Virus record (IMG/VR): IMGVR_UViG_3300022209_000004
Coordinates: 1-46,853 of that record
DNA: 46,853 bases
DNA from: a virus
Direction: 5' to 3' (one strand)
In this document: positions 1,370-46,853 of the stretch, piece by piece
Numbering within the stretch: position 1 is the first letter of the stretch
Layout: each line of letters begins with the position of its first letter
Translations under genes and position numbers: made by a program
The notes under the pieces: generated by a model
The model's database searches: none
What the model was told of the DNA's origin: nothing
The model's input: only the letters and a program-made list of their open reading frames with translations

Positions 1370-2043
1370 CAAACCAGGCTGTCAGATCAACGGAGACGGG
1401 TTCTAGGCTCGATCCTGGACCATTACCTTTGGCGTTTGTGCTGGTACTGGCGGCGGCGGTGTGGGTGGCGCTGATGGGAAATGCGGTGTCCACAGCCGAA
1501 GCACCGGACGAGTTCCAGGCTTTTAGCATCTCTTGTGCGGATCGAGTGGGATATGTGTGGGTTGGTGATCACGAATTGGGCATGGCGCACATCCGTTTGG
1601 ACCATCAGGATCCTTGGTTCGAGCCGGTGCCGCCGATCGTGGCCGGAGACAATGCCTTCCCGGTGGGCGATGCCGCCACGCTGGAGGTGTGGGTGACCTT
1701 GGATGGCGACGAGGTGGACCTGGAGACCCCATGCACTACTTCGAGTAGCTCTACATCCTCGTCGTCTACCTCATCGACGGTGCCGCCTTCGGTGACTACT
1801 CGCCCGCCACTACCTCCGATGTCGGTGCCTCCGGTGACCACCTCGGTGGTGACCACCACCAAGCCGTTGGTGACTTCGACCTCCACCACGGTGCCATCGG
1901 TGGTGGAATGTTGCATTTGTGAGTGTCCGACAGCGGTCCCGGCATCTCAGGATTGGGTGATGGCGATGTTGTGGGTGTTTGCTGGAGGGCTGGTGACTGC
2001 TGCGGCGATCGTACTCGGTTCGTATATGGCAAGGAGGCCATGA
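1366..2043 (+). CDS. Two-anchor membrane protein with Ser/Thr/Pro-rich stalk
   Basis: 225 residues from ATG 1366 (ATGA overlap with the endolysin; GGAGG upstream). A hydrophobic segment lies at about residues 23-43 (LPLAFVLVLAAAVWVALMG). A folded-looking domain follows, then a mucin-like stretch at about 120-180 almost entirely of Ser, Thr, Pro and Val. A Cys-rich patch (ECCICEC) and a second hydrophobic helix near the C-terminus with a positively charged end complete the protein. No family is recognised. Its place between endolysin and a holin-like gene suggests a spanin-like or envelope-spanning lysis factor, which is inference. Confidence 0.75.
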   Translation: MTNQAVRSTETGSRLDPGPLPLAFVLVLAAAVWVALMGNAVSTAEAPDEFQAFSISCADRVGYVWVGDHELGMAHIRLDHQDPWFEPVPPIVAGDNAFPVGDAATLEVWVTLDGDEVDLETPCTTSSSSTSSSSTSSTVPPSVTTRPPLPPMSVPPVTTSVVTTTKPLVTSTSTTVPSVVECCICECPTAVPASQDWVMAMLWVFAGGLVTAAAIVLGSYMARRP

Positions 2044-2354
2044 TGGAAGAAATCACGATCACCTCTCTGCTGTCGGTGTCGGGCTCGGTGGCAGCAGTGG
2101 GAGTGACCATTCAGTTCGTGAAGATCTTTGTGTCGATGTCGAACTCGACCACTCGTCAGTTGGCGGCAGCACTGGGGGCAGTGTTCATGGTGGGGGCGAC
2201 AGTATGGACCAGTGAGGTTACGGTCCCGCTGTTGGTGTCGGCCATTTTCACCGGCATGTTCGCGGGCATCGCGGCCAGCCAGTCCTACGAGATGCTCAAA
2301 GATGGAGTGAACCATGAGACATGGTCTCGTCCAGAGCTGACGCATCGAGCCTGA
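2040..2354 (+). CDS. Small multi-pass membrane protein, holin candidate
   Basis: 104 residues starting at ATG 2040 (or the adjacent ATG 2043). AAGGAGG sits immediately upstream and the start overlaps the previous stop as ATGA. There are two to three hydrophobic stretches: about residues 8-32, 42-58 and 62-82. The C-terminal tail is short and charged. Size, topology and location directly after the endolysin are typical of phage holins, but holins lack a diagnostic motif, so this is a positional call. Confidence 0.72.
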   Translation: MMEEITITSLLSVSGSVAAVGVTIQFVKIFVSMSNSTTRQLAAALGAVFMVGATVWTSEVTVPLLVSAIFTGMFAGIAASQSYEMLKDGVNHETWSRPELTHRA

Positions 2355-2395
2355 CCTTAGGTATCCTGATTCCTGGTTCTTGAAAGGAGCTGTTG

Positions 2396-2605
2396 ATGGC
2401 AACCAGAAAAGTCTTCACATCTGAAGGTGACGTAGAGGACGTAGGTGCTGATGGTTACGAGGTTCCGCTTGTGATGTATGTCAAGCCGGATACCGGCGAG
2501 TCGGCCAGTCCGGTGGAGGGCCAGATCGAGGCCAATGCCACCGATAAGACGATCAAGGTGTATGCAGGTGGGGCGTGGCGTACCCTCACGGACGACTGGG
2601 TCTGA
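2396..2605 (+). CDS. Small acidic protein, end of rightward arm
   Basis: 69 residues from ATG 2396, with GAAAGGAG eight bases upstream. It is a compact beta-rich sequence with a repeated Val/Tyr pattern (YEVPLVMYVK, IKVYAGGAWRTL). The second half resembles the short phage domain that ends GGxWRTL, often found in tail-fibre or minor virion proteins. It is the last gene of the rightward arm and overlaps the leftward gene at 2586-2846 tail to tail by 20 bases. Function unknown. Confidence 0.65.
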   Translation: MATRKVFTSEGDVEDVGADGYEVPLVMYVKPDTGESASPVEGQIEANATDKTIKVYAGGAWRTLTDDWV

Positions 2606-2846
2606 TTCCGCGGCGTTTGGCCTTTAGATCTGCCCAGAGGCACGACCGGCAGGTTGTGCGCTGGCGTCCCTGGTGGACCTCGAACATGCCTATGGGCTGA
2701 TCGCGTCCACACTTCTTGCATGTCTTGGTAGAGGTGTAGCTGGGATGCTTGTCACACTCTATGCGACCGCAGACTGTCACAGGATGGAACGGGCAGTCGA
2801 TGTCGGTGTGAATGCGGTCGATGTCAGTGCATTTGCACAAGCTCAT
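2586..2846 (-). CDS. Cys-rich zinc-ribbon protein
   Basis: 86 residues from ATG 2846, preceded by CACGAAAGGA at the usual distance. It carries at least two Cys pairs that look metal-binding: C-x2-C in CKKCGRDQ and C-x2-C in CRSCLWADLKAKRR, after an earlier C/H-rich segment. The C-terminus is strongly basic. The pattern resembles small phage zinc-ribbon proteins that sit beside HNH nucleases, but no HNH active site is visible. It is the last leftward gene and is separated from RusA by a strong inverted repeat. Confidence 0.68.
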   Translation of the reverse strand: MSLCKCTDIDRIHTDIDCPFHPVTVCGRIECDKHPSYTSTKTCKKCGRDQPIGMFEVHQGRQRTTCRSCLWADLKAKRRGIRPSRP

Positions 2847-2852
2847 TGTTGA

Positions 2853-2862
2853 TCCTTTCGTG
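2853..2862 (-). promoter_or_regulatory. CACGAAAGGA start-associated motif
   Basis: Exact CACGAAAGGA, 6 bases before the ATG at 2846. The AAAGGA part can pair with the 16S rRNA 3' end; the CACG part is the unusual conserved extension. Confidence 0.75.
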
Positions 2863-2864
2863 TG

Positions 2865-2931
2865 GCTAACGGCCCGTTACCTCGCAGTACAAATGGGTTG
2901 CGGTACATGTTTGGAGGTAACGAGCCGTAGC
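2865..2931. other. Long inverted repeat between rusA and the last leftward gene
   Basis: The arms at 2865-2883 and 2914-2931 pair over about 17 of 19 positions, with one bulged base, around a loop of about 30 bases. It lies in the 112-base gap between the RusA stop (2959) and the next start (2846). No U-tract follows in the leftward direction. It may be an attenuator, a processing site or a protein-binding site. No coding potential is seen in this gap. Confidence 0.65.
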
Positions 2932-2958
2932 AGTATGACCACACTCTGACCGGCAAAG

Positions 2959-3357
2959 TCATTGGGCATCGGTGACCTTCTGGGTCGAAGTATGGTCATA
3001 CTGCTTGACAATCACATGAGTGCCTGCCTGGTCGGCGGGCACTTGAACTTTGTATCCCATCACTCTCACGACTTGCTTGTCGTCATCCCAGGCGATGTCG
3101 TTCAGCCCGTCGAGCACGGTCTTGAGCATGTTGTCGATGTCCTTGTCACGCTTGGCGTATAAGAACACGGCCGCCAACTCGATCAGAGTGTCGCTGCGAG
3201 CGGCGATCCCATCGGCTTGAGCAGCGGCCTTGTAAGCCCAGGCGATGGTTTGCTCAGCCTGGCGGGTGCGATCGGGGGTGTAGGTGTTGTTGTTGCGTCC
3301 GAGCCGTGGCCGCTGCTTGGCAACGGGTTCACCGGGGACTGAGAACGCTATTTCCAC
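2959..3357 (-). CDS. rusA: RusA-family Holliday junction resolvase
   Basis: 132 residues from GTG 3357. The N-terminus has the GEPVAKQRPR motif typical of the family. The acidic active-site region is at residues 71-92: DKDIDN, a lysine at 79, D83, and the DDDKQV segment at 91-95. RusA enzymes are dimeric endonucleases that cut four-way DNA junctions; in a phage this would resolve recombination or replication intermediates before packaging. It overlaps the preceding gene by 10 bases and closes the recombination block that includes a RecB-like nuclease and a gp3-like protein. Confidence 0.88.
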   Translation of the reverse strand: MEIAFSVPGEPVAKQRPRLGRNNNTYTPDRTRQAEQTIAWAYKAAAQADGIAARSDTLIELAAVFLYAKRDKDIDNMLKTVLDGLNDIAWDDDKQVVRVMGYKVQVPADQAGTHVIVKQYDHTSTQKVTDAQ

Positions 3358-4294: not shown

Positions 4295-4545
4295 TAGTCG
4301 TGTGTCTCCTTGTTCCATCGGCGGGTGGCCACGAACACACGCCAGTCGTCGAGCAACCACCATGGATTGCGCTTGTTGATCATTCCCCGGGGCCGCGGGG
4401 AGAGGGGATGTTCGCGCCAGGCATCCAGAGTGTCGGGCGCGATCTTGTAATGAGCAGCGATCTCGGCGCGTCCAGCGACCTGGTCGTTGGCGGTGCGAGG
4501 CTCGATGTAGCTCGGGGGGGCAAGATCTTTGATAGGCCGGGCCAT
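4294..4545 (-). CDS. Small helix-turn-helix DNA-binding protein
   Basis: 83 residues from ATG 4545, overlapping the stop of the gp3-like gene as TAATG. The segment from about residue 22 to 60 (GRAEIAAHYKIAPDTLDAW then WWLLDDWRVF) has the pattern of a MerR/excisionase-type winged helix. Small proteins of this type act as excisionases or transcription factors in phages. Next to a recombination-directionality-like gene, an architectural role in recombination is attractive, but no integrase was found in the window. Confidence 0.6.
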   Translation of the reverse strand: MARPIKDLAPPSYIEPRTANDQVAGRAEIAAHYKIAPDTLDAWREHPLSPRPRGMINKRNPWWLLDDWRVFVATRRWNKETHD

Positions 4546-5534
4546 TATGGCGTGCCTTGCAATAGGTTGAGGGCTTCGCCCAGCTTGGTTTTGGTCCAGC
4601 GCTCTGATGGCAGCTCTCCCCCGGTCCAGGTCATGAGCGCATCCTTGGTGGGCTCGTCGGCTCCTACCCAGGCGTGGCGTACCTTGTCGAGCAATGCCCT
4701 TTTGGTGTCGCTGATGGGCTGGGGTTCGGTGGGACCTGCCTCGATCTCGGTGATTTCTTCAGGAGGATTGGTGGTCAGAATGCTGGTGTAGTTGACATCG
4801 AGATAGTTGTCGCTGTCCGGTCCAGGCAGAGCGCGGGCGTCGGCCAGACCGGATGCGATGTTGGCGATGGCCTGGTTGGGGGTGATGTTGGTGCTGAGGG
4901 TGGGTACCACAAACCTGCGGGTGATTGGTTTGCCTGCCAGGATGCCTTTGGTGACGCGTTCCTCCATGCCGAGCACGGCCGGGACCAGACCGGAGCCGGT
5001 CATGCCTTTGATGATGAAGTCCTGTGAGGGCAGTTCATAGAAGGCGTTCCAGCCGGTACTGACCAGACGCCACGCTCCCTTGAATGGGATGTCGGCCAGG
5101 ATGACCGACAGCATGGTGGAAGGCTTGCACTCCAGTTCGTCTTGGGCCGAGCAGATGCACTCCTGGGAGATCAGCTCTTCGCCTTCAGGCCCTGAGGCAG
5201 CAATCTCGGCGGTCACACCGTCACAGCGGCGGATGATGGCCGATCCTTTGCGCAGGACGAACGACTGCTTGACCCCTACTGAACTCAGTAGCACGTTGAG
5301 CGAGGCGGTTTCGGTGATGACTTCCCACTCGTCCCGCTTGATGGCGTCGTTGTGCCATGGGACGGCGGTTCCGCCATAGACGTTGGCGGCTGATTCGATT
5401 TGTGCCTGGTTGGTGGAGGTGAGCCGCCAAGTGCTGAGCTTGATCGGAGCATCTTTGCCCTTCTTGCCCATGCGAATGCGTCCGGCCTCGGGTAGACGAC
5501 CTAGATGGTGTTCGATGTCGGGGATATCAGTCAT
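4545..5534 (-). CDS. phiC31 gp3-like recombination directionality factor / DNA metabolism protein
   Basis: 329 residues from ATG 5534 (ATGA overlap with the previous gene, AGGA upstream). The N-terminal half (about 10-175) has features I associate with the actinophage gp3/RDF family: GRIRMGKKGKDAPIKLSTWR, then ANVYGGTAVPW, a WEV segment, and two Cys-containing stretches (RRCDG; ECICS) that may bind metal. The C-terminal part is acidic and helical. In phiC31, gp3 switches the serine integrase to excision. No integrase is present here, so it may have a different DNA-related role, as many gp3 homologues in lytic phages probably do. Confidence 0.62.
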   Translation of the reverse strand: MTDIPDIEHHLGRLPEAGRIRMGKKGKDAPIKLSTWRLTSTNQAQIESAANVYGGTAVPWHNDAIKRDEWEVITETASLNVLLSSVGVKQSFVLRKGSAIIRRCDGVTAEIAASGPEGEELISQECICSAQDELECKPSTMLSVILADIPFKGAWRLVSTGWNAFYELPSQDFIIKGMTGSGLVPAVLGMEERVTKGILAGKPITRRFVVPTLSTNITPNQAIANIASGLADARALPGPDSDNYLDVNYTSILTTNPPEEITEIEAGPTEPQPISDTKRALLDKVRHAWVGADEPTKDALMTWTGGELPSERWTKTKLGEALNLLQGTP

Positions 5535-6265
5535 GTGTCCTGCCTTCGGCCATACAGCCATAGATCTTTGAGCAATGTTTTGGCTACGACGCGTAGACCA
5601 TCGCTGTGCTGGTGGCCTTTGCGCCATGGGGACCCGGTTGCGCCCCACTCAGGATGCGCAGTGGTGGCACATCCATTGGATCCGGCTGGTGCGTGTGCGC
5701 GAGGGACAATGGTATTGCGGCAGTTCGTGACATGGATACGTTCGATCGTGTGAGCGCGGCGCTTGTCGTAAACCTCCCGATATACGTTGTCGTAGCGAAT
5801 CACCACACTGGATATCACATAGAGCATGGCTCTAGCTTGTCGATTACCTCGGGCCCGGGCATCTTGTTGTGTCATGCCTCGCATTGCTGGTGGGGCAGTT
5901 GGATTCAATCCACAGTATGCCCACAGCTCGGATACGGTACGCGGGCGGTCGTGTTCAGGATGCCAGTACGGATCACCGACGATGCCTACCAAGCGGCCTA
6001 TGGTTTTGTAGCCCAGCCCCGGCACGTTGGCTACGAACGGGCCATAGGGGTGATCTTGCATAGCAGTCTCCAGCCGTTTGGTGGCACGCTTTTCCTCGGC
6101 CATCACCACATCCATGAAGGCTTGCTGGTCGATCAATTCCGGTAGCGGCAGTTCGCCGCCAGCGCGAATTGCCATGAGCCGGTTGTTGATGGCTATGCGA
6201 GTCTTTTCCAGATGACTTAGATGGTCTGTCAGCCATCTGAGTTGTAGGTCGCGTGCTTGTTTCAT
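5531..6265 (-). CDS. Stand-alone IS110-type Transposase_20 domain protein
   Basis: 244 residues from ATG 6265 (ATGA overlap with the previous stop). Residues 1-75 are a helical, coiled-coil-like region. Residues 79-175 match the C-terminal Transposase_20 domain of IS110/IS116 elements: VPGLGYKTIGRLVGIVGDP, then LWAYCGLNP, then ARGNRQARAMLY. A matching last helix follows near 223-236. The N-terminal RuvC-like DEDD domain of IS110 recombinases is absent, and I do not see a serine just before the RGN motif where the catalytic serine is usually found. It is therefore probably a DNA-binding relative, not a mobile element. No terminal repeats flank it. Confidence 0.7.
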   Translation of the reverse strand: MKQARDLQLRWLTDHLSHLEKTRIAINNRLMAIRAGGELPLPELIDQQAFMDVVMAEEKRATKRLETAMQDHPYGPFVANVPGLGYKTIGRLVGIVGDPYWHPEHDRPRTVSELWAYCGLNPTAPPAMRGMTQQDARARGNRQARAMLYVISSVVIRYDNVYREVYDKRRAHTIERIHVTNCRNTIVPRAHAPAGSNGCATTAHPEWGATGSPWRKGHQHSDGLRVVAKTLLKDLWLYGRRQDT

Positions 6266-6732
6266 TGGAACAGGATCCATTTGACGGTATCGACATCGAG
6301 ATCTCCGACAGTGCGAGCGCGTTTTTGTTTCATAACGCCAGCCAGCTCCTGGTACTGATTCCCTTTGTTGAGATACTCCTGGCCCGCTCGATAGAACCTT
6401 TCGGCAATCGCCAGTACGTCCGCTTGTGTGAGGTCGCGATAGGTCTTGTTGCCCACCACTTCGGGATAATGGGGCTTGAGATCCAATAGGTCAGGAAGGT
6501 CAGCCCTTTGCGGACCTCCCTGCGTGCTTGGCTCAACTGAACGCCTGAGAACGGTGCGTCGCATGATGTGATACAGGTAGTGATACAGGTCGATCAGGGC
6601 CAGTTGGAGCAGTTCGCGGATGGCGTCGTCATCAAGGTCGGCCATTATTTTGTCCGCCAGAACGCTGGCGTCCGCGTTGGGATTGGCCTTGATGGCTGTA
6701 GAGAAGATCTCTCTCAGGTAGTTGTTTGACAT
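6262..6732 (-). CDS. Helical protein of unknown function
   Basis: 156 residues from ATG 6732, chosen because CACGAAAGGA precedes it by 7 bases; the frame is open further upstream but would run into the nuclease gene. The N-terminal half is rich in Asp, Leu and Ile helices (ADKIMADLDDDAIRELLQLA). The C-terminal half is basic (MKQKRARTVGDL). No catalytic motif is seen. It sits between the RecB-like nuclease and the IS110-like protein, so a role in DNA processing is likely only by association. Confidence 0.62.
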   Translation of the reverse strand: MSNNYLREIFSTAIKANPNADASVLADKIMADLDDDAIRELLQLALIDLYHYLYHIMRRTVLRRSVEPSTQGGPQRADLPDLLDLKPHYPEVVGNKTYRDLTQADVLAIAERFYRAGQEYLNKGNQYQELAGVMKQKRARTVGDLDVDTVKWILFQ

Positions 6733-9762: not shown

Positions 9763-10473
9763 TCATGACACCACCCCCTCCATATTCGCATCCCAGAAGT
9801 TCGCATCCCTCAAATTCGCACCCTTCAAATGCGCACCCGTCAAGTCCGCACTCCCCAAGTCCGCACTCCTCAAGTTCGCACCCCTCAAATTCGCAACCGT
9901 CAGGTTCGCAACCGTCAGGTTCGCACCCCCCAAGTCCGCACTCCACAAGTCCGCACCCTCCAAGTTCGCACCCCTCAAGTTCGCACGCTCCAAGTTCGCA
10001 CCCGTTAAGTCCGCACCCTTCAAGTTTGCACCCTCCAAGTTCGCACCCCACAAGTTCGCACCTCCCAAGTTCGCACCTCCCAACATCGCGCCTTCCATGT
10101 TCGCATTATGCCCGTTGTGTCGAATAGCCTCGATCAGATCCACAGGACCCGCCACCCACACTCGCTGTGCCTTCCGTTTCCCATCTTCCCACTCCGACGA
10201 TGCAGGCTCAATACCAACCAACAAACAATATGCTGCGCTGTGACCTCCGCTTTGAGCCGCCTTAATCGTGTTCGCTACATGCAACCCCCCCGGTTCGCAT
10301 ACGGCAGGATTAAATGGTTCATGGTCCGTAATCCAGCGGCGACCCGGTTGCCACCAACTAAACCCACCGTACGTGGTCCAGTCAGGATTTAGGAACTTGA
10401 TCGCCGGTTCCAAACCCTCAGGTAGCGTGTACGAGTGCCCCTCTAACACATCAATAATCGAACGGTTACTCAT
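9763..10473 (-). CDS. Pentapeptide-repeat protein with N-terminal domain
   Basis: 236 residues from ATG 10473, with GGAAGGAG upstream; the longer frame to 10719 overlaps another gene. Residues 1-120 form a separate domain with FNPAVCEPGGLHVANTIKAA and a Trp-rich stretch, reminiscent of the DUF7666-type domain. From about residue 125 there are about 22 tandem A(N/D)LxG pentapeptides. These build a right-handed square beta-helix; some family members mimic DNA and inhibit gyrase. A role in protecting or redirecting host gyrase or another DNA protein is possible but unproven. The 15-base coding period makes the DNA look repetitive. Confidence 0.85.
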   Translation of the reverse strand: MSNRSIIDVLEGHSYTLPEGLEPAIKFLNPDWTTYGGFSWWQPGRRWITDHEPFNPAVCEPGGLHVANTIKAAQSGGHSAAYCLLVGIEPASSEWEDGKRKAQRVWVAGPVDLIEAIRHNGHNANMEGAMLGGANLGGANLWGANLEGANLKGADLTGANLERANLRGANLEGADLWSADLGGANLTVANLTVANLRGANLRSADLGSADLTGAHLKGANLRDANFWDANMEGVVS

Positions 10474-10501
10474 GAAATTACTCCTTCCCAAGCAACATGA
10501 T

Positions 10502-10759
10502 TTAGTAGTTGTCCAGGATCTCGACCGCGAGACGGTGTCCCATTGTTGCGTAGCTGTCGAAAAACCTTTGACGATCAAAGTTCGGATTATTGGCCTGGCA
10601 TACGTCGGCCAGGCTGCGGATGATGTCGTGGGCGGCCTGGATGGTAAGCTCCGACAATTCCCAAGCGTTGATCGAATCGTCGGGTATCGTATGGAGGGTT
10701 TCGTGGCGGCCGTAAACAACGGCAGCGATAATCGCGAGGAAGTCTTTTCGGGTCATCAT
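10502..10759 (-). CDS. Small conserved phage-type protein of unknown function
   Basis: 85 residues from ATG 10759 (ATGATG; the second ATG overlaps the upstream stop). CACGAAAGGA precedes it by 9 bases. The segment near the C-terminus (ANNPNFDRQRFFDSY) resembles a motif common in small phage proteins of unknown function (NPxFDxxRF). The N-terminal helix starts TRKDFLAIIAAVVYG. It lies between a secreted protein and the pentapeptide gene. Confidence 0.68.
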   Translation of the reverse strand: MMTRKDFLAIIAAVVYGRHETLHTIPDDSINAWELSELTIQAAHDIIRSLADVCQANNPNFDRQRFFDSYATMGHRLAVEILDNY

Positions 10760-13937: not shown

Positions 13938-13970
13938 GGAGCCGTGTTGCCACGGAGGAGGCGTGGCGTC

Positions 13971-14037
13971 AATAGGTCGGGCGACAAGGAGCCGCTAGCG
14001 GCGACTGCTATTTGCGAAGCAAATAGGTCGGGCGACA
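13971..14037. repeat. Iteron-like direct repeats with palindromes between them
   Basis: AATAGGTCGGGCGACA occurs exactly at 13971-13986 and 14022-14037. Between them are the palindrome GCCGCTAGCGGC (13991-14002) and the hairpin TATTTGC-GAA-GCAAATA (14009-14025). A related sequence AATAGGCTCCGACAC follows near 14162-14176 and leads into CCGACA-CA-TGTCGG (14170-14183). Confidence 0.6.
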
Positions 14038-14688
14038 CTATTGCGCCACATAAGCCGACGGAGTGGCATAAAGGGCGGAATGGAACAGGAACGAACGGAA
14101 GCGGACAGCACCGTAGCCACGCAGCGGAACCGACGGTGACGACTGAAACGGGTAGCCAGTCAATAGGCTCCGACACATGTCGGACGGGAGACCGGGCAGT
14201 TGCGTGTAGGTCGTGTGTATATACAAACGTACTCAACAGGAGAATGCAGCGACCTGCCCCGAATGTCCCCGAATGTCCCACCAGGGTGGATCACGGTGGT
14301 TTCTGGCTTTTGAGAGTGTGTGGGGTGTTTTCTGGCGCATTTTTGGGCTTTTATGGTGTTGAGAGGCGGTATCGGGTTTTGTTGAGTAGGAGGTGGTCAT
14401 GCGAGCGGGCAGCGAGCATGGCCGCCGATCGTTGTGGTGTGGTGATGGTTGCTGCGGCACGGATGTGGCAATGGATCTCTGTCGGCGAAGCAGGCAGATA
14501 TACATTGCCCGAGTTCAACGAACCGAGGGGCTTTAGCCCCGAGGTACCCCGAGAAAGGTTTCTGCAACTCTTTTTGACTGAATAAGGATTGTTGCAACTC
14601 GTTTGGGGTTGTTGTGTTTGGGGGTTTGTCTTTTGAGGTCTTTGATTTTTTGTTTTTTTGTTTTCATGAGCTTTTGGAACCATATGAT

Positions 14689-14744
14689 CCCCCCCCTGTG
14701 TCAGATGCAGGTCTGCGGGGGTTGTTGTCTGACACGGAGGGGGG
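14689..14744. other. Large inverted repeat next to a T-rich tract
   Basis: Arms of 17 bases (14689-14705 and 14728-14744) match at 15 positions, with the other two able to form G-U pairs, around a 22-base loop that itself contains GCAGGTCTGC. A T-rich tract (14641-14665) lies on its left. For rightward transcription the T-run is on the wrong side for a terminator, and for leftward transcription the RNA would be A-rich, so a terminator is unlikely. Confidence 0.6.
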
Positions 14745-15079
14745 AACTGTTACCGGGCTCAGGTGGGCGGGACCTGGTCCGGTTGTTCCACAGCGGGCTC
14801 GCTGTCGTGGCCGGGATGTTTCTTGGTCTCAATGACGGGTTGTTTGCTGCACTAGCGAGGTGAGCTGTCCATCCGGGCACGCCTTGACTGGACATGAGAT
14901 TACAAGAAGCGGAGTGCCCGATAGGTACGAATGGCTTTCGCCTCAGCTTGTTGGTGAGGTGTCTCTGAGGTTCACCCTGGGCCCTGATTGTCCTTGGTCG
15001 TTGGGCCAGTCCGGCAGCATTTCTACCCGATGTCCAGCAGGTGGGTTGCAATATGGTTGCGCTCCTGCTATGATTGCTG

Positions 15080-15319
15080 CTAGGTGTTTTTTGTCATGCC
15101 ACCAAAGTAGTGGATCAGCCCCCCACTTGTCAAGTCTTCCTTTCGGGATTTGGCTGGGGGGCTCACTACTGCCGTAGGTCGGTCAATCAACAATTCTGCG
15201 CTAAGGCGACCGATTGTCGCAGCAATCTCCGGTGTCCAAAACTGAATTGGACTTTTACTCATGGCGTGTTGAATCCACGTCAGCCACCCGTCCGACAACG
15301 TTTCATCCACCAGCTTCAT
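15080..15319 (-). CDS. MKLV-array ORF 8 (79 aa)
   Basis: Begins MKLVDETLSDGW at ATG 15319. It overlaps the end of ORF 7 by 17 bases in another frame and is the longest and last member of the array. The middle is Trp/Ile/Leu-rich (WLTWIQHAM, FWTPEIAATIGRLSAELL) and the C-terminus is basic and Gly-rich. Function unknown; the N-terminus is shared with ORFs 1-4 and 7. Confidence 0.6.
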   Translation of the reverse strand: MKLVDETLSDGWLTWIQHAMSKSPIQFWTPEIAATIGRLSAELLIDRPTAVVSPPAKSRKEDLTSGGLIHYFGGMTKNT

Positions 15320-15491
15320 CTTGCCTCGCTGTTGTGTCGGGCCACAAGAACCGCCATCTTGCTGCGCTGTCAACCCAGATGATCTCCGACAGCCTGGTAA
15401 AGGCCAATGAAGTTGGCTCAACGTAATAATGAGTCCAGTAGGTCCCGAAGTCCCAGAACCTTGCCCACAACTGTTCATCTATCAGTCTCAT
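15303..15491 (-). CDS. MKLV-array ORF 7 (62 aa)
   Basis: Begins MRLIDEQLWARFWDF at ATG 15491, overlapping the stop of ORF 6 as ATGA. It is unusually rich in Trp, Tyr and Phe (FWDFGTYWTHYYVEP; IIWVDSAARWRFLWP). Function unknown. The stop lies inside the start of ORF 8. Confidence 0.58.
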   Translation of the reverse strand: MRLIDEQLWARFWDFGTYWTHYYVEPTSLAFTRLSEIIWVDSAARWRFLWPDTTARQDEAGG

Positions 15492-15691
15492 AGCCTGGTC
15501 CGGGTTGGGCCAAGCCATTCGCTGTAGCTGACAACGCCAGCTCCGTGACCATCTGGTCTTGGTATCCAAGCCAGCGTGCCAGGACTGGGGTACAACTGCA
15601 TGCGGATGAAGTTGTTGTGCTTGAATGAGTGCCGCAACCGGTTCGTCATTGCCCAACTCTGTTGCACCAGATCCTCACCCACCGATCTCAT
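15488..15691 (-). CDS. MKLV-array ORF 6 (67 aa)
   Basis: Begins MRSVGEDLVQQSWAM at ATG 15691, overlapping ORF 5's stop as ATGA. It has a basic helical N-terminal half (TNRLRHSFKHNNFIRM) followed by a Pro/Gly-rich part. A DNA segment inside it (the complement of about 15549-15567) resembles one upstream of ORF 1 (about 16576-16594), hinting at shared ancestry. Function unknown. Confidence 0.55.
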   Translation of the reverse strand: MRSVGEDLVQQSWAMTNRLRHSFKHNNFIRMQLYPSPGTLAWIPRPDGHGAGVVSYSEWLGPTRTRL

Positions 15692-15867
15692 CTTGGGCTC
15701 GATGCGTCAGCTCTGGTGGCAGCACCAGGGCCCGGGTCAAGCAGTCGTAACTCCCATGTCAAGTCGCCGATCAGGTAGGTGTGCCGCTGCACAACCGACG
15801 GTGGTTTTAGTCTTTCAGCCCGCAACTTCCACAACTCTTGCACCAGCTTCCTACCCACCAGCGTCAT
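15688..15867 (-). CDS. MKLV-array ORF 5 (59 aa)
   Basis: Begins MTLVGRKLVQELWKLRAERL at ATG 15867, overlapping the stop of ORF 4 as TAATG. Basic helical N-terminus with the Leu-Trp pair also seen in ORF 1, then a Leu/Pro-rich half. The stop overlaps ORF 6 as ATGA. Function unknown. Confidence 0.55.
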   Translation of the reverse strand: MTLVGRKLVQELWKLRAERLKPPSVVQRHTYLIGDLTWELRLLDPGPGAATRADASSPR

Positions 15868-16046
15868 TATCTGTCCCACCGGACAGCCGGACCGAGCTGA
15901 AGGCAGTTGAGCAAGTTTTGGAACATCCAATATACGGGGTCGACCGCGCGCGCTATTCGGACAAAGTCGTTGTTTTTTCCCACCCCCGCGTGGGACGGTA
16001 CAACCCAACCCAAGCGGCTCGACAACGTGCCGGACACCAACTTCAT
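15867..16046 (-). CDS. MKLV-array ORF 4 (59 aa)
   Basis: Begins MKLVSGTLSSRLGWVV at ATG 16046, overlapping the stop of ORF 3 as ATGA. The DNA around its start matches that of ORF 3 almost exactly, including CGGTGACGAACCATGAAG. Ends with an aromatic/Leu-rich segment (VYWMFQNLLNCLQL). Function unknown. Confidence 0.57.
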   Translation of the reverse strand: MKLVSGTLSSRLGWVVPSHAGVGKNNDFVRIARAVDPVYWMFQNLLNCLQLGPAVRWDR

Positions 16047-16189
16047 GGTTCGTCACCGAGCGTCATCAAAACGTCTTGCAAGTCTTCCAGATTCCCATAG
16101 AGGATGCGAGACATCCACAAACCAAAGCCCTGCTGGTCGTCGATGAAGTTGGCAAGGCTCGCCGCCAACTCGTCATCCACCAGCTTCAT
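16043..16189 (-). CDS. MKLV-array ORF 3 (48 aa)
   Basis: Begins MKLVDDELAASLANF at ATG 16189, overlapping the stop of ORF 2 as ATGA. Predicted helix throughout (LWMSRILYGNLEDLQDVLM). It ends LGDEP, as does ORF 2, so the shared unit covers the end of one ORF and the start of the next. Function unknown. Confidence 0.6.
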   Translation of the reverse strand: MKLVDDELAASLANFIDDQQGFGLWMSRILYGNLEDLQDVLMTLGDEP

Positions 16190-16377
16190 GGTTCGTCACC
16201 GAGATATCCATGCAGCACGCGGGGATTCGCAAGCCAGGGTCGGTGCCGATGCAGAATCAGTGTCAAAACACCAATATCCATGCCATAGATCACGGGGACA
16301 TCCCACGGTGGGTCATGTCGTTTGTCAAACCGCATCTCCGAAAACCCCCGAAACACTGCATCGTCCACCAGCTTCAT
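16186..16377 (-). CDS. MKLV-array ORF 2 (63 aa)
   Basis: Begins MKLVDDAVFRGFSEM at ATG 16377; the frame is open to a GTG at 16407, but ATG is preferred because it aligns with the other members. It contains an aromatic/His-rich middle (IYGMDIGVLTLILHRHRPW) and ends YLGDEP. The 3' end overlaps ORF 3. Function unknown. Confidence 0.6.
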   Translation of the reverse strand: MKLVDDAVFRGFSEMRFDKRHDPPWDVPVIYGMDIGVLTLILHRHRPWLANPRVLHGYLGDEP

Positions 16378-16388
16378 GACCGCGGCCG

Positions 16389-16550
16389 TCACCAAAGCCT
16401 CCACCACTCCGCAAAATCTGCCACAAAAGTCCTTGTCAAGGGACCAAGGTTCGACCTAAGGGGGCTGTGCTGGTTGTCTAACTGTGCCGATCGTGTCTTC
16501 CAATGAAACTCCCACAACTTGGAACGTAGCTCACCGGACACCAGCTTCAT
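16389..16550 (-). CDS. MKLV-array ORF 1 (53 aa)
   Basis: Begins MKLVSGELRSKLWEFHW at ATG 16550 and is the first member in the direction of transcription, about 100 bases after the DUF6745-like gene. It has a basic middle and a Trp-rich end (FAEWWRLW). The frame is also open upstream for about 30 codons without a good start. An SD-like GGAGG lies about 65 bases upstream of the ATG (near 16617-16621). Function unknown. Confidence 0.55.
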   Translation of the reverse strand: MKLVSGELRSKLWEFHWKTRSAQLDNQHSPLRSNLGPLTRTFVADFAEWWRLW

Positions 16551-16650
16551 CACGGCCACCGCACTGTCGTTGAACCATCTGGTCTCGGTACCTGACTGAA
16601 CGGTACTCCAAGTGCCCTCCGATATTGCTTCGGCTTTTCGTATGGAAATA

Positions 16651-17544
16651 TCACGAAGCGGATCCGATTAACCCACCGTCACGATTCAAGGATTCACGCG
16701 CTGCCGCCACCGTCAGAGCTGCTCCGTCGGCCAGCAGGGCATATGTGCGATACGTCCCATCCAATGACGGAGAAGAGTTCCGGCACACCAGCAGTGTGGC
16801 CGACCAGTCTGGAGCGAGCAGAGTAGACGGTAGTGCATACAACGTGCCTATCTCCGGGTCCGGATGGTGGTCCAAGATCCTCAATTCCAAATCAGCCACT
16901 GCCCGGTCCCATCCGTAATACGTCAGGGCCACCCGCCGTTGCTCGGCGTTGGTCAGCTCTGCCATGATTCGTTGTGGGTCAGGATCAACCACGGCCCAGT
17001 CCGGTAGACGGATCCCATCCAGGGCGTAGATCGCATACCCATCTGCCCATAGCCAGGCCGGTCCGTCGGTGCGATGCAGCCGCATCCGGTCGTCTCGATG
17101 CAACTCCACATGATGACGGCTCAGCACCGCCAGCTCGTCAAAGGCCAGCCAGTACAGACACATCAACGCATCCCGGAACGCCTCGGCATGGGCTCGTGTC
17201 TCGGCGTCTACCGACTCGATCTCGTCCAGCTCGTCGATGGTGAGCCAGTGGTGGAGCCACGAAAGCGGCGATCCCCATGCCACCGCCGACGACCGCAGTT
17301 CCTCGATTACCTTCTGGCGATCACGATTGGGCGCATACTCGGCGGCTCCTACCTTCAGCACTGCTCCGGGGCTGTCAACCCAGATGAACCGGGGTGGCGC
17401 AAGGTCTAACACGAAGCCATAGACCTGGCCTATGGCACGTTCCACACGAGCCTCGTCGATCGGTTGTTCCAGGACCTCTGACAACAACCGATCCCGAGAC
17501 GCATGTACGTGTGCCCAAGACTTCTCTGAAAGCTCGGACACCAT
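16651..17544 (-). CDS. DUF6745-like protein
   Basis: 297 residues from ATG 17544, 2 bases after the previous stop. Residues 1-130 are helical. Residues 150-230 carry the pattern I associate with DUF6745 of actinobacteria: LHRTDGPAWLWADGYAIYAL, then GIRLPDWAVVDPDPQRI, then NAEQRRVALTYYGW. The C-terminal part is beta-rich. The family's biochemical function is unknown. In bacteria such proteins often accompany leucine-rich or variable surface genes. Here it precedes the MKLV array, which may matter for its function. Confidence 0.66.
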   Translation of the reverse strand: MVSELSEKSWAHVHASRDRLLSEVLEQPIDEARVERAIGQVYGFVLDLAPPRFIWVDSPGAVLKVGAAEYAPNRDRQKVIEELRSSAVAWGSPLSWLHHWLTIDELDEIESVDAETRAHAEAFRDALMCLYWLAFDELAVLSRHHVELHRDDRMRLHRTDGPAWLWADGYAIYALDGIRLPDWAVVDPDPQRIMAELTNAEQRRVALTYYGWDRAVADLELRILDHHPDPEIGTLYALPSTLLAPDWSATLLVCRNSSPSLDGTYRTYALLADGAALTVAAARESLNRDGGLIGSAS

Positions 17545-17546
17545 GG

Positions 17547-18020
17547 TCAGTCCGCCACTCGCGCCAGTTCGGCACCATAGGCGACCTGGCCATACACAAC
17601 CCAGTCACCCTCGGAGAATGCGACCGAGCCGTGTTCGCCGGTGTGGGTCAGCACCGCCAACCCGCCGCTGGGCACCGACAGCAGACCATAGTCAAACCGG
17701 CTGGTCACGTCGCCGGGGACAAATATCGCACCGGAATCGGACTGGAGGATGTGGGCGTTGCGTTCGGCATCGCCTTCCACCACCTTGTAGCCTCGCCCGC
17801 CCAGCGGCAGCCCCTTGCGCCTGATGGTGTTGGCAAGACCATCGGGGTCGGTCCAGCGACCAATTCGACGCAGGCCATCAACCGAGACCACGATCACGTC
17901 GCCCTGACGATGGCCGGGACGCTCGGCCGTAGCCGAAATCACCGGCACCTCGGCCTGGGCTTCCAAGTGGGGAGGAATCTGGACTCCTACCCGCTCTGCA
18001 GCTTCTGCAAATGTAAGCAT
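17547..18020 (-). CDS. Protein of unknown function, beta-rich
   Basis: 157 residues if it starts at ATG 18020, which has AGAAAGG upstream; an upstream ATG at 18062 overlaps the phosphatase gene by 19 bases. The N-terminus is helical (LTFAEAAERVGVQIPPHLEAQ). The rest alternates strands and turns (GDVIVVSVDGLRRIGRW, NAHILQSDSGAIFVPGDV, VVYGQVAYGAELARV), suggesting a compact beta fold. No family is recognised. Confidence 0.6.
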   Translation of the reverse strand: MLTFAEAAERVGVQIPPHLEAQAEVPVISATAERPGHRQGDVIVVSVDGLRRIGRWTDPDGLANTIRRKGLPLGGRGYKVVEGDAERNAHILQSDSGAIFVPGDVTSRFDYGLLSVPSGGLAVLTHTGEHGSVAFSEGDWVVYGQVAYGAELARVAD

Positions 18021-18043
18021 TGCTCTTCGTACCTTTCTATTTG

Positions 18044-19267
18044 TCAAGGACTGATTGTCCATGAATCCAAAACTCCATTGTGACCATTCGTTGTGATTTG
18101 CAGATGCCCCCCGGTTTCATTCCGGTGAACCTCGATTTCCAGCCAGTTGTATTGGCTAGTCGCCACCACTGTCTCTGGACCACTGCCAGTCGGCCGTAGC
18201 CGGGATGCCCCACCCGACACCACATACGTCACCCCACTTTGTGGCGTCATGCGTTGGTAGTCGTGATCATGTCCGGCCAGCACCAGATCTACGTCCCCAT
18301 AGGTCTCCAAGATTGGCCGCAAATCCTGCAACCAACTCGTGGAGCCGTGGTCTCCGTAGCTGAGCAGCGGATGATGCATCGTGACAATCACCCACTCTTC
18401 ACTGGCCCCCTGCAAGGTGGTGGTCAGCCAATTCCGTTGTGCCGTGTCCATCTGGTTGCTGTTGAGCACGACCAGTCGTACACCAGCATCGACCACCTTG
18501 GTGTAATACAAGGCTGGCATCCCAAGCGCTTGCGCTTGGGATGCACCGAAGCCACTGTCCCAATCGTGATTGCCCAGGGCGGCCCATAGGTCCGCGGTGG
18601 CCAGTACCGGTGCGAACGGGTTCCACAGCACGTTCGGCAGTTGGGCCGGGTCCCCATTCTCATACACATTGTCGCCCAGCAGAAGCAGCGCGTCGAACGG
18701 GTCCGCTCCATGGGCGGCGTTCATGTCGGAGGCGGTTTCGGCGAGCGCCGCATTATCATCACCCGAGTCTCCCATCACCGCAATTCGATACGGCGTGTCT
18801 TCCACCGTCACAGTCCACGCCGGAGCATTGCTGCGTTGGTTGGCGGTATCCCATGCCCAAGTTACAATCTTGTAGCGTCCGCCTCGTAGGTATATCGGAT
18901 CCGTCCAAAAGTGCCCATGCAGATCTCCCAAGCCATTTGCGGACACATGCTGTGGCACAAATCGAGTACCCGTTGGCTGCCACGTCGAACCGTTCCACCA
19001 CAAGCGTCGGTCAACATCGCGCAATGTAACCTTGAATCGGTCAATCCCGACATCGTCGAATGCGTCTCCGGAAATGGTGAACCAACCTGGCCATCGGTAG
19101 TCAGCACACATTTGTGTGCCGCACTCATACATCGGAGACCAGGTTGCCACATCATGCGGAGGATTGTCCACCTGAGCTTCTGATCGTTCCGACCACAACC
19201 CGATAGCCATCAGCACTATCACCACGATGGTTATCACTGTGGCCATTATCTTGTGTTCACGTCTCAT
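18044..19267 (-). CDS. Membrane-anchored purple-acid-phosphatase-like metallophosphoesterase
   Basis: 407 residues from ATG 19267 (AAGGAG upstream). An N-terminal anchor or signal lies at residues 8-26 (MATVITIVVIVLMAIGL). Residues 40-155 form a beta-rich domain. The calcineurin-like catalytic part shows all five motifs: GDSGDD (166-171), GDNVYENG (198-205), GNHDW (232-236), HHP (298-300) and GHDHDY (332-337). The tyrosine at 202 after GDN is typical of purple acid phosphatases. It would hydrolyse phosphate esters outside the membrane. This is an unusual accessory gene for a phage and may liberate phosphate during infection. Confidence 0.87.
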   Translation of the reverse strand: MRREHKIMATVITIVVIVLMAIGLWSERSEAQVDNPPHDVATWSPMYECGTQMCADYRWPGWFTISGDAFDDVGIDRFKVTLRDVDRRLWWNGSTWQPTGTRFVPQHVSANGLGDLHGHFWTDPIYLRGGRYKIVTWAWDTANQRSNAPAWTVTVEDTPYRIAVMGDSGDDNAALAETASDMNAAHGADPFDALLLLGDNVYENGDPAQLPNVLWNPFAPVLATADLWAALGNHDWDSGFGASQAQALGMPALYYTKVVDAGVRLVVLNSNQMDTAQRNWLTTTLQGASEEWVIVTMHHPLLSYGDHGSTSWLQDLRPILETYGDVDLVLAGHDHDYQRMTPQSGVTYVVSGGASRLRPTGSGPETVVATSQYNWLEIEVHRNETGGHLQITTNGHNGVLDSWTISP

Positions 19268-46572: not shown

Positions 46573-46853
46573 TGATGGTGGCACAGGCCGGAGCGGTGAT
46601 CGACTCGAACTCGGTGACGATTGTGCTGGCGGCCGTGACGTATCTGGCGGTGGCGCTGTCCGCAACTTGGGTGCTGGTACAGGGCACCAGTCATGTGGGG
46701 CGGCGCAACGTGGTCATCATGTTGATGATCATTGGGTACATGTGGTCGTTGGGGTTCTACTTTCCCCAACTGTGGGTGGACGCAAGTGCCGATCTACGGT
46801 TCTTGAGCCGCGCTTTCCATGGTATTCAGGTGGTGGCACTGGCAGTAGTAGTA
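46569..46853 (+). CDS. Multi-pass membrane protein of lysis cassette (5' part, continues at 1-224)
   Basis: The gene starts at ATG 46569 and overlaps the stop of the nozzle-like gene as ATGA. It continues across the contig join to the stop at 222-224, giving about 122 residues in the circular genome. Three hydrophobic stretches are visible: VTIVLAAVTYLAVALSATWV, a second around VIMLMIIGYMWSLGFYF, and VVALAVVVVTI near the C-terminus. Its position just before the endolysin group, its size and its membrane segments fit a holin or holin partner, but no family motif is recognised. It is split only because of where the contig was opened. Confidence 0.8.
   Translation, partial: MMMVAQAGAVIDSNSVTIVLAAVTYLAVALSATWVLVQGTSHVGRRNVVIMLMIIGYMWSLGFYFPQLWVDASADLRFLSRAFHGIQVVALAVVV
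46714..46853. repeat. Right copy of terminal overlap (contig circularity)
   Basis: Second copy of bases 1-140. The last 126 bases match exactly and the only mismatch is 14 bases from the left edge. The mismatch changes an ATA codon (left end) to ATG (right end) inside the junction-spanning membrane protein, an Ile/Met difference in a predicted membrane helix. This suggests strain variation in the sampled population or an assembly edge error. Confidence 0.93.

Follow-up and report, generated by a model that had tools for sequence, protein, structure and literature searches.

A tandem array of eight small, coupled open reading frames with a shared N-terminal start block in a phage genome

The stretch of DNA analysed here, hereafter the window, corresponds to one complete IMG/VR virus record (46,853 bases), in which eight consecutive small ORFs, all read leftward, tile 1.47 kb. 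A preliminary description had listed their starts, their lengths of 48-79 aa and their N-termini, all of which were confirmed in the sequence. In the direction of reading, all on the minus strand, these are ORF1 (16389..16550; 53 aa; MKLVSGELRSKLWEF...; an alternative upstream GTG start is possible at 16559), ORF2 (16186..16377; 63 aa; MKLVDDAVFRGF...LGDEP), ORF3 (16043..16189; 48 aa; MKLVDDELAASL...LGDEP; the strongest coding signal in the array), ORF4 (15867..16046; 59 aa; MKLVSGTLSSRL...; an antisense frame outscores the annotated one), ORF5 (15688..15867; 59 aa; MTLVGRKLVQELW...; closest to ORF6), ORF6 (15488..15691; 67 aa; MRSVGEDLVQQSW...), ORF7 (15303..15491; 62 aa; MRLIDEQLWARFW...) and ORF8, the last array member (15080..15319; 79 aa; MKLVDETLSDGWL...). 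The LGDEP ends common to ORFs 2 and 3 had also been pointed out before, and our reading agrees.

The members are tightly packed. As previously described, ATGA overlaps occur at the ORF2|3, ORF3|4, ORF5|6 and ORF6|7 junctions, TAATG is found at ORF4|5 and ORF7 overlaps ORF8 by 17 bases. The 11 bases before the ORF2 ATG, the sole gap in the tiling, had been reported as such and stand if both genes begin with ATG; an in-frame GTG for ORF2 at 16392, giving a 68 aa version, overlaps the ORF1 stop as GTGA, so that there may be no gap at all. Further upstream, the neighbouring DUF6745 gene is separated from ORF1 by 100 bases, which are filled by an ORF that the first reading did not list, ORF0 (16550..16654, minus strand, 34 codons from GTG, VIFPYEKPKQYRRALGVPFSQVPRPDGSTTVRWP; putatively coding). 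It is coupled at both ends, through GTGA on the DUF6745 stop and TGATG on the ORF1 ATG, and lacks the MKLV block with which the array members begin; ORF0 and the ORF6 tail have 16 of 17 bases in common (VPRPDG/IPRPDG), their similarity as proteins being modest (P 0.018). From DUF6745 through ORF8, an overlap of 1, 4 or 17 bases is possible at every junction.

The DUF6745 protein gene (16651..17544, minus strand, 297 aa; Pfam PF20530, E 5.6e-24) overlaps ORF0 by 4 bases and likely lies on the same transcript as the array. Next upstream comes the gene of a 171-aa protein (17547..18062, minus strand), and the genes upstream of the array also include one for a calcineurin-like phosphoesterase. The order of the 171-aa and DUF6745 gene pair (16651-18062) is kept in the Mycobacterium abscessus prophage prophiGD102-1 (MW584211; L222:4692-6525), where, as in the window, the pair is followed by coupled small ORFs, some of which start alike (MSELL...); unlike the array members, these are less alike mutually, and they have no match to the array ORFs. 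The DUF6745 protein of this prophage carries a long QLRDQLWGQL repeat that is absent from its counterpart in the window. No mention of DUF6745 was found in the literature searched.

The first and last 140 bases of the record (1-140 and 46714-46853) are identical bar one visible mismatch, so that it probably represents an entire genome with terminal overlap, circularly permuted or terminally redundant, which IMG/VR classes as linear. Its capsid protein is 44% identical to that of Mycobacterium phage Bernal13 and up to 49% identical to those of IMG/VR contigs, and its TerL is 43-47% identical to five IMG/VR records among those searched. Because of the relatives of the capsid protein and of the AAA ATPase, the host is probably an actinobacterium. 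In the loci compared, these capsid and TerL relatives have the structural genes in common with the window and lack the leftward accessory genes; no close relative emerged when DUF6745, the AAA ATPase and TerL were each used singly as queries. Elsewhere in the genome, a Gp3-like recombination directionality factor (PF18897) adjoins an IS110-type transposase-like gene (PF02371, barely above the cut-off) at 4545-6280, and a minus-strand ORF at 9763-10719 contains ANLxGA repeats that resemble pentapeptide repeats. The array is immediately followed downstream by about 1.1 kb (13938-15079) that hold no convincing gene; the cumulative GC skew over the first 20 kb has its maximum within this gene-poor stretch, at 14.5-15 kb, which makes a replication switch point possible there. 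Rfam gave no match in 13-17 kb.

The feature that sets the eight ORFs apart is the similarity of their first residues. In a BLOSUM sum-of-pairs comparison of the eight ORFs, residues 2-8 are similar with Z 17.4 and residues 9-16 with Z 5.4 (0 of 5000 shuffles in either case), and the signal falls to Z 1.6 (P 0.065) at residues 17-24; the divergence after the N-terminal block noted in the preliminary description is thus borne out, similarity fading beyond residue 16. Adjacent members are significantly similar to one another over these N-terminal 16 residues. The consensus of the block is M-K-L-V-x-x-x-L-x-x-x-[LF]-W-x-[FLM], positions 12, 13 and 15 being hydrophobic or aromatic in most members. 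A position weight matrix built from the eight starts places these in the top eight ranks of the window and retrieves nothing else, the next-best site scoring less than half of the weakest array start; the matrix was trained on these same sites, and in leave-one-out scoring they reach 13.9-34.0, still above the 12.4 of the next site. Over the whole genome, the same matrix found the start block in no other gene of the phage. Identity in bases -30 to -1 upstream of the eight starts is 0.27, the background value, and the conserved block therefore begins at the ATG.

A constraint on this block at the protein level is likely but not proven. Codon usage varies at several conserved residues: L8 is encoded by CTA, CTG or TTG (with GTG, hence V, in ORF2), D5 by GAC or GAT, G6 likewise varies synonymously, and ORF7 retains MRLIDEQL with different codons (ATGAGACTGATAGATGAACAGTTG). 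Over codons 2-8, pN/pS is 0.66 and identity at the first, second and third codon positions is 0.61, 0.62 and 0.60; with the three positions about equal, protein selection is not cleanly separated from DNA conservation, and in codons 2-4 the third positions are conserved as strongly as the first and second.

Beyond the start block, the tails of ORF2-3, ORF4-6 and ORF4-7 are similar above shuffles, and ORF5 and ORF6 are similar over their full length, mostly in the first half; summed over all pairs, tail similarity is not significant (P 0.12). AlphaFold models of ORF8 and ORF3, run with the eight paralogues as alignment input, predict helices at 6-22 and 30-42 in the former (mean pLDDT 63, pTM 0.40) and a helix at 6-21 plus two strands in the latter (mean pLDDT 68, pTM 0.32). 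The two models agree in the N-terminal helix only, their second halves differ and confidence is low in both, which points weakly to an N-terminal helix common to the members. A hydrophobic-moment test for an amphipathic helix gave a coherent signal at 100 degrees (P 0.007); as there is a signal at 160 degrees (P 0.0003) too, it gives no proof of a helix. A fold search with the ORF8 model returned no match at E < 1.

Relatives of the array were sought in several collections. A tblastn search of phages and plasmids with the eight concatenated queries, run without a positive control, returned nothing up to E 10, and ORF2 alone gave matches at chance level only (E 6-10). Paired-start pattern scans hit only unrelated loci, both among the matches listed for IMG/VR and in GTDB genomes. 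Profile searches yielded two weak matches, both within longer frames, in 396 genomes of one bacterial phylum, and no array match in 50 phages that share MCP or TerL with the window, a search in which the window itself scored 1e-13 to 1e-26. Beside DUF6745 in 10 bacterial genomes (2.5-3.6 kb per locus) there was no array either. Against Pfam, PHROGs and NCBIfam, defence and anti-defence families included, the array had no confident match, and scans of ORF2 and ORF8 against PADLOC returned no defence or anti-defence match. A decayed phage tail terminator (PF23841) was considered and rejected: ORF6 alone aligned to it, at 19.3 bits, below the cut-off of 27, over profile positions 73-125 of 161, and the record held no further match to this family. 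A detector of chains of tiled ORFs (35-130 aa each, alike in their first nine residues) found a chain of 8 in the window, whereas none of 300 Markov shuffles of the region exceeded 3. Across the 5.3 Mb of 541 other loci, the next values were 7 (locus L122), 5 (prophiGD102-1) and 4, a background to be read as rough and not as a census, since the window was known when the threshold was set and many of the loci had been fetched by patterns resembling it; no comparable array was found among these loci. Narrow-term searches of open-access papers retrieved no account of such an array. Since the phage itself has no close relative found, and since the collections may lack records that are very close to it, missing relatives of the array are weak evidence of its novelty.

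Phages commonly carry runs of small accessory genes. That the array is a tandem family is well supported. The preliminary description had explained it by tandem duplication, after which the sequences diverged while an N-terminal module was conserved, and this is still the best fit, the N-terminal module being significant, although homology between tails is visible in some pairs only. The explanation that we find best, and hold with middling confidence, is a translation-coupled accessory family with a shared N-terminal docking or assembly helix and diverging tails. Tandem expansion would have generated a set of related accessory microproteins of the phage, encoded at the 3' end of a putative leftward operon comprising the phosphoesterase, the 171-aa protein, DUF6745, ORF0 and ORFs 1-8. 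The ORFs, presumably translated, would be expressed by termination-reinitiation coupling, by which one transcript would supply the entire set at once. In each member, roughly the first 15 residues would form a short conserved helix, a candidate docking or assembly element through which the members may bind one common partner or associate mutually, and the divergent tails may provide each member with a contact of its own. A bolder version, which we regard as quite unlikely, is that of eight interchangeable subunits whose common helix lets them assemble into mixed oligomers or attach to a single host protein while the tails address different targets, the whole being a multi-specific counter-defence or takeover set; a role in anti-defence or host takeover, as suggested initially, is only a guess, and the swappable specificity peptides suggested alongside are likewise no more than a candidate reading.

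Another reading, to us rather unlikely, takes the array as a series of cassettes in which homology at the junctions lets whole small ORFs recombine, the shared N-terminus being a by-product and the tails unrelated genes. In lambdoid phages, conserved gene boundaries have been proposed as recombination sites for gene exchange, and the nin region contains small accessory ORFs with overlapping stop and start codons and similar junction sequence. As in the nin region, the small ORFs of the array are coupled and some of their junctions are alike: at ORF2|3 and ORF3|4, 14 identical bases directly precede the ATG and a 41-nt stretch, 80% identical between the two, spans both junctions, the ORF bodies there being unrelated at the DNA level. 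The conserved third positions in codons 2-4 and the lack of similarity in most tail pairs would also suit such exchange. However, junction-centred similarity of the nin type is clear only at these two of the boundaries, upstream conservation extending otherwise only in part to ORF1/ORF2 and lying at background over all eight. Unlike in the nin region, the similarity in the array is mostly downstream of the start, as an amino-acid pattern; this hydrophobic pattern, written in varied codons, extends to residue 15-16, and some tail pairs are related, all of which speaks against cassettes.

The coding signal bears on a further alternative, namely that the ORFs are decaying paralogues, duplicates of one small gene in which most tails are free of selection and the starts are still recognisable. 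The array scores 0.086 bits per codon, the training genes having a mean of 0.296 and a minimum of 0.114; the score is slightly negative in ORFs 1 and 6 and near zero in ORFs 4, 5 and 7. Such weak scores would be expected from decay, as would the missing start block in ORF0 and the differences in tail length and sequence. Of the six frames, the annotated one scores highest in ORFs 1, 2, 3, 5, 6 and 8 (in ORF6 even with its slightly negative score), and in ORF7 it is nearly tied with the best. Against decay stands that tight coupling is kept over nine ORFs, where decay would probably have produced gaps or broken frames; moreover, phages seldom retain 1.5 kb of junk. We consider decay an unlikely account of the locus.

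The block could instead be a signal in RNA or DNA at the start codon, either a (re)initiation element or a protein-binding site, for which the start-associated sequence (SAS) of cluster K mycobacteriophages offers a comparison. The SAS is a 13-bp nucleotide element located 3-7 bp upstream of the ATG and containing a Shine-Dalgarno core (PMC3203893). Like the SAS, the array block is a short repeated sequence that accompanies several non-structural genes of a phage at their starts. In favour of a signal, conservation of the block begins exactly at the ATG and peaks in the first 12 bases (ATGAAGCTGGTG), third positions included. Unlike the SAS, which lies upstream of many unrelated genes (PMC3203893), the block lies within the coding region and belongs to adjacent small ORFs only; no GGGATAGGAGCCC-like element was found 3-7 bp upstream of the array starts, where identity is at background. 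The retention of residues and not of bases in ORF7, and the absence of the block from other genes of the phage, count against a nucleotide signal, which we hold to be very unlikely.

Finally, that the array is a tandem-repeat protein read out of frame is extremely improbable: the seven small ORFs with similar starts in locus L122 are a warning precedent, having turned out to stem from a repeat protein (EVGILTGTYASDSNDxFG...SADGKTIVVGA; minus strand, about 1700-3200 from the 3' end) translated in the wrong frame, but the single long gene in another frame that the preliminary description had named as the refuting case was looked for in the window and no alternative frame stays open along the array, whose starts rotate through all three frames and whose other frames mostly score worse.

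Eight neighbouring ORFs that have one 15-residue N-terminal module in common and diverge thereafter were not found in the collections and papers searched. If translated, this duplicated family would represent a natural experiment in the diversification of microproteins around one kept interaction element, and its conserved helix would offer a way to the common partner.
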